Part shown: positions 21,897-36,388 of the stretch, piece after piece
Layout: the number at the start of each line of letters is the position of its first letter
How positions within the stretch are numbered: the stretch's first letter is position 1
From: Thermoflexales bacterium
GTDB taxonomy: Bacteria; Chloroflexota; Anaerolineae; J036; Brachytrichaceae
Direction of reading: 5' to 3'
NCBI GenBank assembly: GCA_025057935.1
Contig: JANWUW010000076.1
Location: 1 to 36,388 of the forward strand
Length of the DNA stretch: 36,388 bases
Made by a program: the position numbers and the translations under genes
The notes under the pieces: generated by a model
Told to the model about the DNA's origin: nothing
The model's database searches: none
Seen by the model: only the letters and a program-made list of their open reading frames with translations

Positions 21897-23032
21897 CAGC
21901 CCTGCGCATCGTGCACATCTACAAGGACTACGCGCCTGTGCTCGGCGGGATTGAGAATCACATCCGCGTCCTCGCCGAAGCGCAAGCGCGACGGGGTCAT
22001 CACGTGAGCGTGTTGGTGACGCAGCGCGCCGGCTTGCCTTTCAGCGACACCGTTATTAACGGTGTGCGCGTAGTGAAAGTGCCGCGCCAGCTCAACGTGC
22101 AGTCGGCGCCGATCAGTTTTGCTTTCCCGCGCTGGGTGCGCCTCCTCACGCGCAATGCCGACATCGCCCACTTGCATGCGCCCTACCCCATCGGCGAGCT
22201 ATGCAACTTGTGGTTCGGGCGCGCCCGCCACACAGTGATCACATGGCACAGCGACATCGTGCGCCAACGCACGCTGTTGCGCTTCTACACGCCTTGGCTG
22301 CGGCGCGTGATCGCGCACGCCGATCGCATCTTCCCCACCAGCGAAGTCTACGCGCGTACGTCGCCATGGCTGCAGCGCCATCTCGACAAGTGCCGCGTCA
22401 TCCCGCTCGGCGTTGACCCGCAGCGCTTCGCGCCGCCAGCGCACCCTCCTGCACCAAGCGGCGTCCTGCGTCTGCTCAGCGTTGGTCGTCTGCGCTACTA
22501 CAAAGGGCTTGATGACCTCATCCGCGCGCTGTCCACTCTGCACGACGCAGAAGCGTTCATCGTCGGCGACGGACCTATGGCTGCCGCTTGGCAAGCGCTT
22601 GCGCGCCAGCTTGGCGTTGCCGATCGCGTCCACTTTATCGGCGAAGTGGACGATGAGGCGCTGCCGCGCTGGTATCAGAACGCCGACGTGTATGTGATCC
22701 CGGCGAACGCGCGCGCAGAGGCGTTTGGCGTGGCGATCCTCGAAGCCATGGCGAGCGGCTTGCCGGTGATCTCGACCGAAGTAGGCACGGCAACCTCGTG
22801 GATCAACCAGCATGGCGTGACGGGCTTTGTCGTCCCGCCGCGCGATCCACAAGCATTGGCTGCAGCCATTGAGCGCCTGCGCGATCCTCGCTTGCGCCGA
22901 CAGATGGGCGAGGCTGCGCGCGCGCGCGTGCTCGCCGAATTCACCGAGGCGCACATGCTCGCCTGCGTCGAGGCAGCTTACCGAGAGCTCACGGATGCGT
23001 CGGCTGTGCCGCGCGCCGCGCAAAGCGCATGA
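21893..23032 (+). CDS. Glycosyltransferase family 4
   Basis: 379 aa, a second GT-B enzyme in the same unit. The N-terminus has IYKDYAPVLGGIENHIRVLAE, the typical GGIE...H acceptor loop of GT4 enzymes such as PimA/mannosyl- and glucosyltransferases. The donor half has LLSVGRLRYYKGLDDLIRAL and an EX7E motif in AEAFGVAILE, then MASGLPVISTEVGT and GVTGFVVPPRDP. Glycan target unknown; probably the same product as the preceding transferase. Its last 44 nt overlap the 3' end of the convergent membrane glycosyltransferase gene, an unusual arrangement that leaves no room for a terminator between them. Confidence 0.93.
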   Translation: MTALRIVHIYKDYAPVLGGIENHIRVLAEAQARRGHHVSVLVTQRAGLPFSDTVINGVRVVKVPRQLNVQSAPISFAFPRWVRLLTRNADIAHLHAPYPIGELCNLWFGRARHTVITWHSDIVRQRTLLRFYTPWLRRVIAHADRIFPTSEVYARTSPWLQRHLDKCRVIPLGVDPQRFAPPAHPPAPSGVLRLLSVGRLRYYKGLDDLIRALSTLHDAEAFIVGDGPMAAAWQALARQLGVADRVHFIGEVDDEALPRWYQNADVYVIPANARAEAFGVAILEAMASGLPVISTEVGTATSWINQHGVTGFVVPPRDPQALAAAIERLRDPRLRRQMGEAARARVLAEFTEAHMLACVEAAYRELTDASAVPRAAQSA

Positions 23033-29072: not shown

Positions 29073-30152
29073 TCACGAGGTGCATGCCGCCACAAGCGCG
29101 CCCAGCGCGGATTGCTCCGCCATCACTGCCAAAGTGTCATGCGCTTGCACGCGGTAATCGCCAGCAGGATGAAAGTGCAAGGCGCCGTTGCGACGCACCA
29201 GCACCACGCTAACGCCATACTCGCGCTCCACTTCGCCGATCGTTTTGCCCGCTAGCGAGCTACTGGGAAGTATCTCTAGACGCACAAGGCTGAACGTCTG
29301 CCCCTCGATGGTGATCGGACGTGTCACATCTATGCCGACGGCGGCGGCAGCGAACGCGGGCGCGGCGATGCTGGTAGCGCTGAGCGCCTTGAAGGCAAAT
29401 TGCTGCTCAAGCGCTTGCGCGAAGTCATCGTCGAAGATGCGCACTACAACCTTGATGCGCGGGTTCAAGCTGCGTGCCTTAACTGCGATCTGTAGGTTGA
29501 GCGTGTCATCTTGCATGCAAAGCACCAACGCGCGCGCTCGGCGCACGCCTGCCGCCTCGAGCACGGACTCGCGGCGCGCGTCGTCGGCGATGATCGGAAT
29601 GCCGAGGTCTTGGATCGCCTTCGCGGTGTCGCCGTGAGGCGCGATCTCGATCACAACGAGGTCTTGCTCGAGCTGATGCAGGTAGCGCGCGACGCGATAG
29701 CCCAAGTGTCCCAAGCCCACAAGGACCACGTGCTCGCGCAGCGTTGCCGCAATTGCCATCTGCCACTCCTTGCCGCGCGCGCGGCGGTTGAAGAATAGCA
29801 CGCCGAAATCCGCTAACCCCTGTGCGAGAACGCCAATGCCCAGCAGCGGCATGAGGAAGTAAAACACCTGCAGGAACCACACGCGAGGAAAGCGATCCAC
29901 TGCGGACTGCAGGAACACGAGCGAGAGCACGTGGTACACAGCATGCGCCAAGCTCTCCCCGCCCTCCTCGCCCGCGCTGCGTGCGAGCCAGTGATAAAGC
30001 ACGCCGCCGCTCCCCACCAACACGCTGAACGCAAGCAGCGGCAAGCGAAACTCACGCAGCAAGAGCGAGGTGTCGCGAAGGGCAGCGCGCACCCGTCGCG
30101 CATGCCGCCGCGGCTTGCGCCGATTGTAGGGTTTAACCTCTCTGGCGGGCAC
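29073..30152 (-). CDS. Two-TM, RCK (TrkA-N/TrkA-C) domain protein lacking a K+ selectivity filter
   Basis: 359 aa from a GTG start at 30152. A basic N-terminus (1-35) is followed by TM1 (about 37-57) and a re-entrant-loop region (about 64-88). TM2 (about 92-122) follows, then an RCK_N Rossmann domain with GLGHLG at 146-151 and a downstream acidic IEIAPHG. A TrkA_C domain covers the C-terminal 85 residues. The architecture is that of MthK-like channels. However, the position where TVGYGD should stand reads SLVFLQSAVDRFP, so no K+ filter signature exists. It may be a non-selective or different-ion channel, or a nucleotide-gated regulator. Such degenerate members may form a known subfamily; I cannot verify it. 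It lies alone, between the mreD gap and restriction-gene remnants. Confidence 0.85.
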   Translation of the reverse strand: MPAREVKPYNRRKPRRHARRVRAALRDTSLLLREFRLPLLAFSVLVGSGGVLYHWLARSAGEEGGESLAHAVYHVLSLVFLQSAVDRFPRVWFLQVFYFLMPLLGIGVLAQGLADFGVLFFNRRARGKEWQMAIAATLREHVVLVGLGHLGYRVARYLHQLEQDLVVIEIAPHGDTAKAIQDLGIPIIADDARRESVLEAAGVRRARALVLCMQDDTLNLQIAVKARSLNPRIKVVVRIFDDDFAQALEQQFAFKALSATSIAAPAFAAAAVGIDVTRPITIEGQTFSLVRLEILPSSSLAGKTIGEVEREYGVSVVLVRRNGALHFHPAGDYRVQAHDTLAVMAEQSALGALVAACTS

Positions 30153-30182
30153 GGCGCACTGCGATCACGCGCAGCGCTTGCG

Positions 30183-30422
30183 CTAGTCGCGCGCGCAAAC
30201 CTCGGCGAGCCTTTTGCGTAGCTCGGAAGGATGCCTGCACACCACAAACGCCCAGCGCCCAAACTCACCATGATGATTCACCGCGCGCACCCAACGCTTC
30301 GCCGCTGCCTCTTTCTGTCGGTCTTGTTCGGTCTCAAAGCCTTTGACTTCCAAGATCGCCTTGCTCTCACGTCCATCTGGGCGCCGCAAGCGAATGCGGT
30401 AGTCTGGGCGGTACTCGTGCCG
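30183..30422 (-). pseudogene. C-terminal remnant of a type III/DEAD-box restriction endonuclease subunit
   Basis: The minus-strand frame ending at the TAG at 30183 reads [12 protein letters not shown], then [35 protein letters not shown] and AFVVCRHP. This is the nuclease-like C-terminus (D...E-x-K region) of large Res/DEAD-box restriction subunits. It opens after an in-frame stop just upstream of this segment. A neighbouring frame reads LIEVDHAR, so the homology may continue through a frameshift for a few residues. The hundreds of residues of helicase expected upstream are absent; the sequence turns into a methylase fragment on the other strand. Clearly a dead remnant, though a small ORF (M at 30389) remains open. 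Confidence 0.75.
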
Positions 30423-30490
30423 CGCGCATGATCTACTTCAATAAGACGAGCTACAACGGCTTGTATCGCGTCAACGCTCGCGGTGAATAC
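30416..30490 (+). pseudogene. Internal fragment of a D12-class (Dam-like) adenine DNA methylase
   Basis: The plus strand reads [16 protein letters not shown] then YRVNARGEY, the highly conserved FxNKTxFNGLYRVNxxGEF block of D12-class N6-adenine methyltransferases. Real enzymes are about 260-300 aa; here only about 25 residues survive. After position 30490 the family's next residues (N-V-P-x-G) are missing, and the frame stops at 30526. It overlaps the restriction remnant by 7 nt on the opposite strand, so this is a recombination or deletion scar rather than a gene. Confidence 0.75.
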
Positions 30491-30500
30491 ACGGGAGGAA

Positions 30501-30929
30501 CTACGCCCGCATATCTACGCGAATAGGCCGATCATTAACAATGATGTAATCACCATGGCTTTCTCTTATTGTTTTCACGTCTTTGGCTTCTACAAGTTCC
30601 CCTTCTGGAGACACGCGATAAGCCACTAACTTTGCGCGATGCACCTGATAACGCCTAACATCAGATTCCCAGCACACCACCAGTGTGCCAACGGGCAGCT
30701 CGGCACTAACGGTAGCGTGTCTGTCTGGTGCGAGCATGTATGTTGTGCTGCGTGACACACGCGGGAGATAGCCAGTAAGGTTGCGAGCAATGGGGCATTC
30801 ATTCGGCCACCATGCTCTCCCGTCATGCACGATGACTGCGACGCATCGTGTCCCGTTGCCTCGCGCGCTCAACGCATTGTAGCTTAAGGGCACTCTGTGC
30901 CACTGCTGCGCCTTCTCTTTCACATCCAT
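30501..30929 (-). CDS. Hypothetical protein, 142 aa
   Basis: I recognise no family. The ATG at 30929 is preceded by a strong AAGGAGG Shine-Dalgarno sequence 9 nt upstream, and a TACAAT -10 box lies at 30954-30959. This makes it a convincing, classically expressed gene, unlike its leaderless neighbours. The protein is soluble and mixed alpha/beta with no signal peptide. Visible pieces include [20 protein letters not shown] and [22 protein letters not shown], with a C-terminal [17 protein letters not shown], suggestive of a small beta-rich fold. It sits immediately beyond the restriction-gene scar, at the beginning of the lower-GC accessory segment. It could be a small cargo or antitoxin-like gene, but nothing proves that. 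Confidence 0.7.
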
Positions 30930-30953
30930 GGCACGCTTCCTCCTTCTGGAGAT

Positions 30954-30959
30954 ATTGTA
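30954..30959 (-). promoter_or_regulatory. -10 box TACAAT for the 142-aa hypothetical gene
   Basis: TACAAT on the minus strand, 24 nt before the ATG at 30929, leaving room for a leader of about 17 nt that contains the AAGGAGG ribosome-binding site. Confidence 0.5.
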
Positions 30960-31109
30960 CACCAAACTCTGCGATTATGACCGCTGCACCATTTCCTCTT
31001 CGGCGACTGCCTTTGGCGAGCATAGGCTACGATTAACACCAGCATGACCTTGTAGCTTTTCAACAGCATGGGACAAGCGGTCGGGGATGGCAAAGCCGAC
31101 GCCTACGTC

Positions 31110-31424: not shown

Positions 31425-31433
31425 TGCTATAAT
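31425..31433 (+). promoter_or_regulatory. Extended -10 (TGCTATAAT) for the 454-aa unknown gene
   Basis: TGC directly precedes a consensus TATAAT, and 11 nt later comes the ATG at 31445. The expected leader is only about 4 nt and holds no Shine-Dalgarno sequence. No -35 consensus is seen at 17 bp, as is common with extended -10 promoters. Confidence 0.65.
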
Positions 31434-31444
31434 ACCAACAAACC

Positions 31445-32809
31445 ATGATTTATAATCTCGAGACCCTCACTGTAAAGCACCTGTTGACATGGTGGCTGTT
31501 TTATGCTCATGCAATTGGTAGCTTTTTGCCTTTTTCGCTCAGCACGCTGCGCGCTAAAATGCATTTCTTTGAGATGACATGCGGGCGTGCTGGTTGCAAA
31601 CCATGTGGCACGATCTTTGGCGGCGAAACGCTGTCTGCGCCATTGCACACTATGCGTCGCGTGCTAGATGATGGCCGTTGGTTAACGCTTCTGCACACCG
31701 TACATCACCTTGGTCCCTTGCTCCTTGGCGATCTGCCTCAAATGCACCGAACTGATCTTGAGGATCTTCGTGCCCGACTGTCCTGTCCTTTGTCTTATGC
31801 GCAAGCGGTGTTGACGTTATGTGAGACAGACAGCGCTTACGACAAACAGGTTCTAGGAGATGCGCTGCGAGACATCCCAATATCGCAGTGGGCGCATTGT
31901 TTTGCGCCATTTGTGAGCTTGCGCAGATGTCTGCCACGCTGGGTTGGTCAGATGCACGCAGAAGCATGGTGCTCATTAGATAAGGAGACGCAGCGTTGGC
32001 TCGCTGCGCTATGGTGGTTACACTACAGTTATGTACACAACGATGCTTCGCGCCCTACGCCAATCATCGCTCATATGCTCGCCAATGACCCTGTAGGCGA
32101 CTGGTTATCACATCTCGGGATGACGGTTGTAAGCGCAACGCCGCAGAACAAAACGGCGCGGCTCCAGGACGAAAACGTCCCTGAACATCCGCACGTGTGC
32201 AAGTTTGTAGAGGAACTTCTTGCTTCTGCAATTGTCGTGCAAGCGATTGCGCGTTATAGTATGCACCCTGACCATCGCGGTGTCGTCCTGCTGAAGAAAA
32301 CATGGGCAAAAGAAATTCTTGGTTTAGAATGTGCTCAGCCTTGCACTGTATCGCCGCGCGATGTATGGCGGCTAAACGCGCTCGGGGTTGATTCCCCCTT
32401 GCACCACGCGCTGCAGGTCTCGCCATGGCTAGCGGCAGCATGGCTGCGATGGCTTGCCGAAGCCGAGAACGATGTCTTGATGATCGCTCAGAGCGCGCAG
32501 CTTGTAGACCAGATTTGGGGACTCAATTACATATACCTAGAGCCGGAGACCTATGCACAACTCGCGCAGAAGCTCGCGACGGCAAGTGAGCGAGCCGAAG
32601 ATCTGCAGCTGGCACATCGTTTACAAGCGCTCGCCCGACATGCCGATGCTACTGAGGCGCTCATGTGGCGTTTGTATATCGACATCGAAGTGAACGTCGG
32701 CGAACTTGTTGCGCGTTACGGCGAAGATGTCGATCGGCTGGCATGCGCCGCGCGGGATTACCAGCAGACGATCGAGGACCATCCTCCTGTGTGGCAGAGC
32801 ATCGTATAG
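31445..32809 (+). CDS. Unknown protein, 454 aa, Trp/Cys/His-rich, helical
   Basis: No family recognised. The open frame has a good promoter at its start and protein-like composition throughout, so it is a real gene. N-terminal residues 1-35 are hydrophobic and aromatic (LLTWWLFYAHAIGSFLPF), possibly a membrane-associated helix. A CGRAGCKPC cluster (Cys46, Cys51, Cys54) could bind a metal. The rest seems all-helical with several Trp-rich helices (AALWWLHYSYVH, WLAAAWLRWLAEAEND). The C-terminus is acidic and ends PPVWQSIV. Base composition is much lower in GC than the flanking core genes (e.g. 27 of 60 bases at 31501-31560). It converges on an SSB-like gene across a 78-nt gap. A second unknown of nearly the same size (457 aa) lies beyond, ending in a loosely similar PTWINVIR; this may be coincidence. 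Confidence 0.7.
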   Translation: MIYNLETLTVKHLLTWWLFYAHAIGSFLPFSLSTLRAKMHFFEMTCGRAGCKPCGTIFGGETLSAPLHTMRRVLDDGRWLTLLHTVHHLGPLLLGDLPQMHRTDLEDLRARLSCPLSYAQAVLTLCETDSAYDKQVLGDALRDIPISQWAHCFAPFVSLRRCLPRWVGQMHAEAWCSLDKETQRWLAALWWLHYSYVHNDASRPTPIIAHMLANDPVGDWLSHLGMTVVSATPQNKTARLQDENVPEHPHVCKFVEELLASAIVVQAIARYSMHPDHRGVVLLKKTWAKEILGLECAQPCTVSPRDVWRLNALGVDSPLHHALQVSPWLAAAWLRWLAEAENDVLMIAQSAQLVDQIWGLNYIYLEPETYAQLAQKLATASERAEDLQLAHRLQALARHADATEALMWRLYIDIEVNVGELVARYGEDVDRLACAARDYQQTIEDHPPVWQSIV

Positions 32810-32887
32810 GCGCGCAATAAGCGCAGCAAGCCCGCAGAATGGCGCCGTGCGCGTGGTGCGCCTAACATGCCCTCAAGCGCCTCAACG

Positions 32888-33394
32888 CTAAGATTCCGAG
32901 CCGCTGGATGCTAGGTCGGGATTATCCGCTTTGGGCGAAGACGGCGATAAAGGTTGTTCTGTGGAAGCGAATGGCGTGAAGCGTCGGCGATAGGGCAGCG
33001 CGCTCTGTGAGGATTCACGCGGCGCGATCGTGTGAGCAGACTGGAGCTTAGCATCGCTTGCCTTGAACACTTGCAAGTAATGCACAAGCACCTCGAAGCT
33101 GTCTGGCGGCGCGCTGGACGCAGCGCTTCGTGTCTGCCGCAATCGCGGACCGCCCGTGTTGGGATCAGAGATCAGCGCGCCTCGGATCATGACCAATGTA
33201 CCGCGCCGCAGGTGGCGCTTCATGCGGACTGCCATCTGGCGGCGCCCGAAGAGCTTGAAAGTTCGGCGATACAGTTTCCCGTTGCGCTTGGCAACGATGA
33301 TCAATTTGCACAGCGCGCTCAAGTCGCCGCTGGGCATATAGCGGACAACAGGAGCGCTCGCCACACGACCAATGATGATAATTTCGTGATGCAT
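32888..33394 (-). CDS. Divergent single-stranded DNA-binding (SSB-like) OB-fold protein
   Basis: 168 aa from the ATG at 33394. The first 110 residues form an SSB-type OB fold: IIIIGRVASAPVVRYMPSG matches the family start (V-I-L-I-G-x-L-x-x-D-P-x-x-R-Y-x-x-S-G). KRHLRRGTLVMIRGALISDP followed by NTGGPRL matches the K-G-x-x-V-x-V-x-G strand and a DPNTGGPR phrase. The usual aromatic-rich W-x-x-V-x-x-W core is replaced by a basic KLYRRTFKLFGRRQ stretch, so DNA binding may differ. The C-terminal 55 residues are a Ser/Pro-rich tail ending SSGSES; the acidic D-D-x-P-F tip that recruits partners in normal SSB is absent. Upstream in-frame ATGs are rejected because an extended -10 ends 7 nt before this ATG. 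Probably an accessory, plasmid- or phage-type paralogue. Confidence 0.75.
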   Translation of the reverse strand: MHHEIIIIGRVASAPVVRYMPSGDLSALCKLIIVAKRNGKLYRRTFKLFGRRQMAVRMKRHLRRGTLVMIRGALISDPNTGGPRLRQTRSAASSAPPDSFEVLVHYLQVFKASDAKLQSAHTIAPRESSQSALPYRRRFTPFASTEQPLSPSSPKADNPDLASSGSES

Positions 33395-33401
33395 TGGTAT
33401 C

Positions 33402-33410
33402 ATTGTATCA
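33402..33410 (-). promoter_or_regulatory. Extended -10 (TGATACAAT) for the SSB-like gene
   Basis: On the minus strand TGA precedes TACAAT, and exactly 7 nt later the ATG at 33394 begins. Transcription would start at or within a base of the initiation codon, a strict leaderless layout. This fixes the start codon against the in-frame ATGs further upstream. Confidence 0.65.
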
Positions 33411-33665
33411 TATCTCGCGTCTTTATCGGCACCTGCCCTCATGGGTTTAAGCAGCATGACAACGCGCGCACAAGCAGGCGCGCCTTCGCGCGGCATGTCC
33501 ACATCCGACTCCGAAGATCAGGGCAAAGACACGGTGCTTTGTATGTAGCGATACACTGTAGCGCAAGGCGCTTTTGACCCGCGCGCCCGACTACGTCGTC
33601 GCTACACCGCGCCTCTTATTGGTTACATAACATATCCCCTCGATGCGCTATGACCGCTCATGGTG

Positions 33666-35039
33666 CTAACGGATGACGTTGATCCACGTCGGCTCGTCAT
33701 AGAGTAGCATGCGCTGATGCGTAAGCCATGACACAGCAGTTTGTACCCATGTGTCAACATCGGCACGCACTTCATTCAGCGCCGCAACCAAGCCGTTCAT
33801 GATTTGCTTGTGCAAGCGCACTGTCTCTTGTTGATGCTCACAAATGCGCATCACATGCTTTGCCCATTGCTGCGTTTCATCCTCGTGTGCCATTTGGCAC
33901 ACCGATTGCGCGAGATTGGCCAACCAACGATTTTCGTCAGGAGTGTTTTGCGCTAGGTTTTGCAATCCTTCTGTGCCGCTCATGCGCGAGAATGCGTTTA
34001 CAAGCACGCTTGGATCCATTTGCGAGCTCTGCAGCGACCACTCGTGAATGGCTTGCGCAACAAGAAACCAGTAGCAGCCCAGCCCGACACCTCCCTCAAC
34101 GCCGTGATCGCGTAGATGTCCGATGATGTTTTCAGGCATCATGATCGAGTTCTTCACAAGCGTAGAATCAATGACGCCAGCGTCCTTCAATCGTCGCGCG
34201 AGCGCGGCGATCGCCTCAGCCTGTGGCGCAGGCTGAAACGCGAGTATCAATAAGCTTGACAATGCAAACTGTTTGTCATCTGCATCGTTCAACGCCAATC
34301 CTTCCAAATGATCGGCTGTAGCGCGCGGGCTTTGGCTACGAGAGATAAGCAGCACAGTCGCTAGCGTCGCCTCATCGATCAACGGCGCGACCTGCGATGC
34401 ACCGTCGTAGGTATGCACATGGCTCAGCATGTGCAATCGACGTCGCATACGGACGCGTCGATGTTTTTGCGATAGGGCAGTTTTGAGAGCCACAAGGCGC
34501 ATGGCGCGCTTGAGGGGAGGTTGGAGGCTCAAGGCGCGACGATTTGCGACATAAGCTATACTCCACAGTGTGCCTTCGTCCAGTGTTGCCCAAGCATGTT
34601 GCCAGAATTGCGCGACGTGCTCAGCAGGCAAGGTGTTCAGATAGTGCTCGATAAGCTGCATGGCTGAGAAGCTAAGACGTATGTGCGGATTGATGAAGGC
34701 ATGTGAGAAGGCTTGAAACATTGGGGGCATAAGGCTGGAAAGATATGCTTGCAGGTCAGGGGGCGAGAACGAATGTCCTGTAATGGTGCGCTCCTCTCGG
34801 AAGCGCTGTATGCGCATCAAGTAAGGGGCAATATGCGTGCGCGCCTCGGTGCTTAAAGATGCAAGCATTCGCAAGAAATCCTGCACTGTGTAAACATCGC
34901 GCCGAGGCGTATCATCATCCTCGCTGTAGCGCGCCGCCTCAGGATACCACCAATGCCACTGACGCGGTAATAATTGTGCATCGCTAAAGAAACTCACAGC
35001 GCGCGCGACGTTACCGATAGTGAGCATCATATATGTCAT
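33666..35039 (-). CDS. Unknown protein, 457 aa, predominantly helical
   Basis: No family recognised. No signal peptide. Composition suggests a soluble all-alpha protein, perhaps HEAT/TPR-like. Visible pieces are QWHWWYPEAARYSEDDDTPRRD near the N-terminus, a basic patch LSQKHRRVRMRRRLHM (about 190-205) that could contact nucleic acid, and EGGVGLGCYWFLVAQAIHEW in the C-terminal third. It ends in DEPTWINVIR. The start at 35039 is supported by a TGCTAGAAT extended -10 that ends 14 nt upstream; there is no Shine-Dalgarno sequence. Same strand as the SSB-like gene, 271 nt upstream of its start, with separate promoters. Lower GC than the core genes. Size, loosely similar C-terminus and promoter type resemble the 454-aa unknown, so the two may be a functional pair; that is inference. 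Confidence 0.7.
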   Translation of the reverse strand: MTYMMLTIGNVARAVSFFSDAQLLPRQWHWWYPEAARYSEDDDTPRRDVYTVQDFLRMLASLSTEARTHIAPYLMRIQRFREERTITGHSFSPPDLQAYLSSLMPPMFQAFSHAFINPHIRLSFSAMQLIEHYLNTLPAEHVAQFWQHAWATLDEGTLWSIAYVANRRALSLQPPLKRAMRLVALKTALSQKHRRVRMRRRLHMLSHVHTYDGASQVAPLIDEATLATVLLISRSQSPRATADHLEGLALNDADDKQFALSSLLILAFQPAPQAEAIAALARRLKDAGVIDSTLVKNSIMMPENIIGHLRDHGVEGGVGLGCYWFLVAQAIHEWSLQSSQMDPSVLVNAFSRMSGTEGLQNLAQNTPDENRWLANLAQSVCQMAHEDETQQWAKHVMRICEHQQETVRLHKQIMNGLVAALNEVRADVDTWVQTAVSWLTHQRMLLYDEPTWINVIR

Positions 35040-35053
35040 GCGTTCACTAGTCT

Positions 35054-35062
35054 ATTCTAGCA
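35054..35062 (-). promoter_or_regulatory. Extended -10 (TGCTAGAAT) for the 457-aa unknown gene
   Basis: The same 9-mer as at 14149-14157. Fourteen nt separate its end from the ATG at 35039, implying a leader of about 7 nt. It lies between the start codon and the dyad elements at 35108-35208, which are well placed as upstream operators. Confidence 0.6.
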
Positions 35063-35107
35063 TGCTCTTCTTGCGCATGAGAGAGCACACACAATGACCA
35101 GGAATAC

Positions 35108-35138
35108 ACGCAAGATGCCTGCCCTTAAGGGCTTGCGT
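35108..35138. promoter_or_regulatory. Nested dyad: ACGCAAG...GCCCTTAAGGGC...CTTGCGT
   Basis: A perfect 12-bp palindrome GCCCTTAAGGGC (35121-35132) lies within an outer 7-bp inverted repeat ACGCAAG (35108-35114) / CTTGCGT (35132-35138). It sits 46 bp upstream of the 457-aa gene's -10 box. It could be a repressor or activator site, or a hairpin. Confidence 0.45.
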
Positions 35139-35162
35139 TGCTGCGTGCGACGCGCCTCTTTT

Positions 35163-35208
35163 GCATGGGCAGTGTTGCTCACACGGTTTGCTCACAACTC
35201 GCCCATGC
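35163..35208. repeat. Inverted arms GCATGGGC/GCCCATGC enclosing two TTGCTCACA direct repeats
   Basis: Outer 8-bp inverted arms (35163-35170 and 35201-35208) flank two exact 9-bp direct repeats TTGCTCACA (35175-35183 and 35188-35196), spaced 13 bp apart. The combination is iteron- or operator-like and lies about 100 bp upstream of the promoter of the 457-aa gene. Confidence 0.5.
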
Positions 35209-35850
35209 GTGCAACGGCTCGCTCAATGGAATAGAATGTAGGCATCGCGCGCAACACTTGGTCTGGTTCCTGACCTACCATGGAAAGTGGATGCTATAAG
35301 GTACGTAAACGGCTTAAGAGCCAGAGGCGTATGCGTCGAAGTACTCTGTGATACGCCTGTATCGCAACATAAACTAATTCAGCGCTTGGGTTATTTGCGT
35401 TGCCGACACGACGTGCCGCCCAAACACGTAACCCTTGCTAAGAACGCATTGCCGCCGCATGAATCAGTCCTGCGCGATCTACTGCCAGCACCCTTTTGTC
35501 CCCACATACGCTTGTCCTCATCTTTGAGCCAAGCAGCGCTGGAAGACGTGGAGCGACATGCATCGTAACATCTACCCGTGACACGAAGCGGATAGCATTG
35601 AGGCTTGTGTGTGACGAATCGCGTGTGACCACGAGATGCGTTTGCGAGCCGACATCGCTCTGCCCTCCCACACCTCAAATCGTCAGACGTGCTCTTAGAC
35701 GCATTGCCTATGGCACATCATGCGCACGCCTCCTGATGTTCGTGGACATCCGCTTCCTGGTGATGATGATGAAATACGGCCATCTGTCGAATCTTCAAAT
35801 GGCAGATGCGCGTGATCGCGGGCACTATAACATCTTCAATCTTCCATGTC
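35209..35850. other. Unresolved, probably non-coding or decayed stretch
   Basis: About 640 bp without a convincing gene. Short open frames exist on both strands (for example plus 35287-35568 with a GTG start, and minus 35438-35671, whose middle VSRVDVTMHVAPRLPALLGS looks mildly protein-like). None has a Shine-Dalgarno sequence, a promoter or a recognisable domain, and they overlap one another. A TATAAC at 35827-35832 may be a -10 box for the gene that starts at 35863. The stretch may contain a degraded gene. Confidence 0.4.
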
Positions 35851-35862
35851 GGAGAAGCGACG

Positions 35863-36237
35863 ATGCCTGATGACAATCTTCTGCACGCTCTTGTGTCCAT
35901 ATCTCTTGCCACGCATTATCCATTCCTGGTTTGCCCCTTGCTGATCGCGTGTATCCTCGTGCGCGCCGCGCTGCTGCTTGCGCCACGTCCCAAAACGGCG
36001 CAGGCAAGAATCACAAGAGATGTGTATGAAGATTTCGTGATCCCTAATCACATCGCATATGCGCTGCGCGGCGCTTTTGCGCCACATGCTCTGATACATC
36101 GGCTCTCTGAACAGCAGATGCTTGGGACTTTGCTCATCCTCGCGCCACCGAAGCCAGAGAACATCAGCAGCTCCTGCAAGATGCCGTCATGTCATATGCA
36201 AGCAGATTGGCGATGCATTTGTCGAATCTGCTATTGA
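35863..36237 (+). CDS. 5' part of an unknown, apparently frameshifted gene (running to the right edge)
   Basis: The ATG at 35863 has GGAG 8 nt upstream. The frame gives 124 aa to a stop at 36237: an N-terminal hydrophobic helix (about 10-40, HYPFLVCPLLIACILVRAAL), then ITRDVYEDFVIPNHIAYALR and HALIHRLSEQQM. From about residue 85 it turns poor. Coding-like sequence continues in the next frame (DFAHPRATEAREHQQLLQDA and VMSYASR, about 36125-36200) and then in the third (IGDAFVESAIDACTRHMEDV, about 36205 to the edge). Each switch corresponds to loss of one base. Either a pseudogene, two sequencing indels, or less likely programmed shifts. No family recognised. Confidence 0.5.
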   Translation: MPDDNLLHALVSISLATHYPFLVCPLLIACILVRAALLLAPRPKTAQARITRDVYEDFVIPNHIAYALRGAFAPHALIHRLSEQQMLGTLLILAPPKPENISSSCKMPSCHMQADWRCICRICY

Positions 36238-36388
36238 CGCTTGTACACGACACATGGAGGATGTCTATGGCCCAATCATTCGCTCTGTTTATGCCACGGA
36301 AGCGCTGAGTGGCATCTTTGCGCCAGAATTTTTTGTACCGCGACCTGTCCGAACAACACCTTTTGTTTTCTCTGCCTGTGCTCGCGTG
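36205..36388 (+). pseudogene. Downstream frame of the same frameshifted gene, open at the edge
   Basis: The frame reading IGDAFVESAIDACTRHMEDV, YGPIIRSVYATEALSGIFAP, then EFFVPRPVRTTPFVFSA is open to the window end. It has no start codon of its own before the Met at 36254 and no Shine-Dalgarno sequence. It is best read as the continuation of the gene that begins at 35863. Function unknown. Confidence 0.5.

Follow-up and report, generated by a model that had tools for sequence, protein, structure and literature searches.

The window analysed here, 36,388 nt in length, is the entire contig C72 of a 2.27-Mb assembly (108 contigs, 97% complete). Ordinary high-GC genes, including those of a PBP2-like protein, MreD and a TrkA-type protein, are found up to position 30152, and beyond about 30.15 kb, as far as the end of the contig at 36,388, the GC content falls from ~62% to ~54% (0.54 over the segment). 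The GC drop described in the initial annotation was reproduced exactly by a recount (27/60 at 31501–31560 versus 42/60 at 22861–22920), and the stretch at 30–35 kb had the lowest GC content (0.553, with a median of 0.624) among the 110 5-kb windows of a 351-kb genome sample. The segment contains the following features, listed in the order of their coordinates:

30153–30500, minus strand: scar left by a BPTD_3080-family restriction endonuclease gene, covering its C-terminus
30501–30965, minus strand: orphan ORF of 154 aa, or 141 aa when counted from the ATG at 30926, separating the restriction scar from the genes that follow
31425–31433, plus strand: extended -10 element TGCTATAAT, located 11 nt upstream of the start codon (ATG) of the 454-aa gene
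31445–32809, plus strand: intact ORF of an orphan 454-aa Cys/Trp-rich protein (12 Cys, 18 Trp)
32888–33394, minus strand: divergent SSB-like OB protein, 168 aa, pI 11.2 (ORF 32888–33502, promoter-linked start ATG at 33394)
33402–33410, minus strand: extended -10 element TGATACAAT, located 7 nt upstream of the start codon (ATG) of the SSB-like gene
33666–35039, minus strand: intact ORF of an orphan 457-aa protein with the basic patch SQKHRRVRMRRRLH
35054–35062, minus strand: extended -10 element TGCTAGAAT, located 14 nt upstream of the start codon (ATG) of the 457-aa gene
35445–35705, minus strand: eroded IS transposase relic of the DDE_Tnp_1 type, composed of two collinear pieces (35445–35522 and 35638–35705) with an internal deletion
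35863–36388, plus strand: frameshifted gene that runs off the contig, encoding a protein repeat of approximately 80 residues

The profile search clearly indicates the origin of the leftmost feature, which had been read previously as a restriction-gene scar: the match to NF046055 (E 3e-20) covers positions 896–969 of the 970 positions of the profile, and in-frame stops are located upstream. The last ~74 profile positions of the BPTD_3080 family are recognisable at 30153–30500, but, unlike the family members, the window keeps the C-terminal remnant only, which cannot be functional. The adjoining 154-aa ORF has no relatives in Pfam, NCBIfam, PADLOC, PHROGs, 321 genomes of the phylum, viral contigs or plasmids. 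A search of the literature on the BPTD_3080 restriction family, tipless SSBs and ORFans did not reveal a direct precedent.

Both genes for proteins of ~455 aa predicted in the initial annotation are present, encoding 454 and 457 aa. The longest stop-free run in the segment comprises 461 codons, against a mean of 182 and a maximum of 289 in 200 dinucleotide shuffles, so the long ORFs did not arise by chance; their codon-position GC is coding-like (0.64/0.43/0.56 and 0.60/0.42/0.59) and their codon usage differs from that of the host genes. Homologues of the two proteins were found neither in two congeners, 28 genomes of the family and 400 genomes of the phylum, nor in seed-based scans of GTDB contigs and viral contigs, nor in plasmids, PDB sequences, Pfam, NCBIfam, PADLOC and PHROGs; the seed-based scans pick up close relatives only, and the word orphan refers here to the collections searched. 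Four weak matches to the 457-aa protein in other genomes of the phylum were rejected: two lay in stop-containing frames, the third was what we take to be a histidine-kinase-like gene, and the fourth was antisense to a gene that, from its translation, is presumably GvpF/L-like. The 454- and 457-aa proteins show no sequence similarity to each other and no internal duplication; a resemblance between them and the frameshifted protein, seen by eye, was not significant in shuffle tests or in a ranking against a further 263 genes. Searches with Pfam, NCBIfam and PHROGs profiles revealed no recognisable catalytic domain in either protein. Structure prediction, suggested earlier as a check, was carried out with AlphaFold from single sequences and gave helical models at low confidence (pLDDT 45 and 42) that are uninterpretable; both proteins are probably all-helical, judging from these models. 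If functional, the two ORFans would define new protein families.

The SSB-like protein matches the profile PF00436 with an E-value of 7e-5 and 23.3 bits, under the curated cut-off of 26. Its OB-fold region can be aligned with the bacterial SSB family (PF00436 / TIGR00621) over residues 1–117, with both the DPxTGGPR motif and the SFE segment falling inside the aligned part. In pairwise comparisons it is 35–36% identical to the resident SSBs (E 4e-13 and 2e-14), and its closest relatives, with about 30–36% identity, are typical SSBs from the same family and class. The genome encodes two canonical SSBs, on contigs C56 and C51, and the protein in question is a third paralogue. According to these alignments, it is derived from an ordinary bacterial SSB. 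At the same time, it differs from the family in several respects. The stretch TTWFRVNVF of the relatives is replaced with RT--FKLF, with the loss of ssDNA-stacking aromatics; a loop is shortened by deletion; the protein is strongly basic and contains no Trp at all; and the C-terminus reads LASSGSES, with no acidic tip of the DDIPF type. The earlier description of a divergent SSB-like OB protein lacking the acidic tip thus agrees with the homology and with the alignment. In the SSB phylogeny, the branch of this protein is extremely long (about 6–8 changes per site), and its placement in the tree is therefore not resolved. The protein may still bind single-stranded nucleic acid through the OB fold, but, with the stacking aromatics and the acidic tip gone, the binding would be altered and would rely on charge, and the customary partners in replication and repair would not be recruited. 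If functional, it would offer a striking example of an SSB deprived of both the stacking aromatics and the partner-recruiting tip.

SSBs are often carried by phages and plasmids, and the presence of a third SSB beside two canonical ones, together with the low GC content, might point to the decayed remains of a plasmid or prophage that had integrated, with the SSB-like protein as its former replication SSB. Such an origin seems unlikely: the window contains no integrase, no replication or structural gene and no tRNA; the plasmid search gave no match, the matches to phage SSBs are only partial (27–32% identity), no relative was found among viral contigs, and the SSBs closest to the SSB-like protein are cellular and belong to the same family.

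Each of the three intact genes is preceded by its own TGnTAnnnT element, and the distances of 11, 7 and 14 nt to the ATG are in line with the initial annotation, which had promoters fused to the start codons. This is far above the background, which amounts to 10 of the 260 other genes under a looser rule (any start within the first 40 codons) and to about 1% of ATGs in shuffles. A few host genes (L079, L080 and L084, on contigs C9, C10 and C59 of the same assembly, G000) also have the element, 6–13 nt before the start codon. The similar elements before a few genes elsewhere in the genome point to promoters of the host type with leaderless or very short-leader transcripts. The positions of the elements suggest that the three intact genes of the segment are expressed near-leaderless, and those before L079, L080 and L084 suggest that this lineage has a small class of leaderless genes. 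The segment uses both strands, and the opposed orientations and the separate promoters argue against a single operon.

The three genes might act jointly, but nothing other than their adjacency and the similar placement of their promoters supports this. A functional three-gene module could be imagined, where the SSB-like protein would form a coat on single-stranded nucleic acid, with the two helical proteins as sensor or effector partners in defence or element maintenance. The proximity of intact genes whose extended -10 elements match would fit such a module, and the adjoining restriction scar hints at a defence island; however, PADLOC revealed no match to a component of known anti-phage defence systems, the failure to find homologues deprives the module of co-occurrence support, the genes lie outside a single operon and neither large protein has a recognisable catalytic domain, which makes this explanation distinctly unlikely. 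Still more improbable is the proposal that the 454-aa and 457-aa proteins and the tipless, Trp-less SSB constitute a lineage-specific module of a new type, which would act on single-stranded nucleic acid and include two protein families whose fold is unknown. Of the "horizontally acquired module acting on single-stranded nucleic acid" proposed in the initial annotation, the first part is supported, since the low GC content, the scar, the IS relic and the absence of the two large proteins from both congeners and the other family genomes searched indicate accessory and probably acquired DNA; the second part is not supported, as only the SSB-like protein is linked to nucleic acids and the large proteins are related by sequence neither to each other nor to known families.

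The transposase relic at about 35445–35705 is a feature additional to those described before. Its two pieces are 76% and 75% identical at the DNA level to an IS transposase region on contig C1 of the same assembly (contig positions 1688–1767 and 2080–2145). This region (L044, positions 1396–2132) is a better-preserved relative of the relic and encodes a DDE transposase (PF01609, E 3e-10) split over two frames. The resemblance bears on the question of whether the contig is chimeric, with a junction at about 30.2 kb and a segment from another organism of the sample. The abrupt change in composition and the fragmentation of the assembly would be compatible with a chimera, but the relic resembles an IS copy of the same assembly, the nearest relatives of the SSB-like protein include the genome's own SSB, and promoter elements like those of the segment are found at other places in the assembly; a chimeric origin is highly improbable.

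The features taken together make it likely, though by no means certain, that the segment is the edge of a lineage-specific, eroding accessory (genomic) island with intact ORFan cargo, located in the bacterial chromosome and probably acquired horizontally. It combines atypical composition with large proteins absent from close relatives, and it shares with ORFan-bearing genomic islands the low GC content, the genes missing from close relatives, the gene scars and the IS remnants. It differs from them in that no integrase, tRNA or direct-repeat boundary is visible in the window, where tRNA, Rfam and boundary-repeat searches gave nothing convincing, and in that its right end runs off the contig; as the contig stops at 36,388, the island is truncated. 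The synteny comparison with congeners did not show an empty site; one of the two congeners has the TrkA-type gene, but in another neighbourhood. In the island scenario, the restriction gene would have been deleted down to its C-terminus at the island site, the IS would have eroded and the repeat-protein gene become frameshifted, while the three separately promoted genes would have been left intact, the 454- and 457-aa proteins being carried as cargo, presumably as independent, all-helical ORFans. Several observations speak against this reading: the same rare promoter placement in three adjacent genes could reflect common regulation, the integrity of three genes amid decay suggests selection on them, and, with the island truncated, further members or an integrase may be located on another contig. 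The locus represents one truncated island in one genome and is typical of bacterial accessory DNA.

The reading frames and the repeat analysis corroborate the frameshifted gene of the initial annotation at the right end of the contig. No relatives of its product were found in 380 genomes. The protein contains two copies of a ~43-residue segment, located ~80 residues apart, and the internal repeat score of 69 compares with 21 ± 4.4 in shuffles, none of the 2000 shuffles reaching it. The repeat has the motif ALRGAFAPxxLxxRLSEQQxL.
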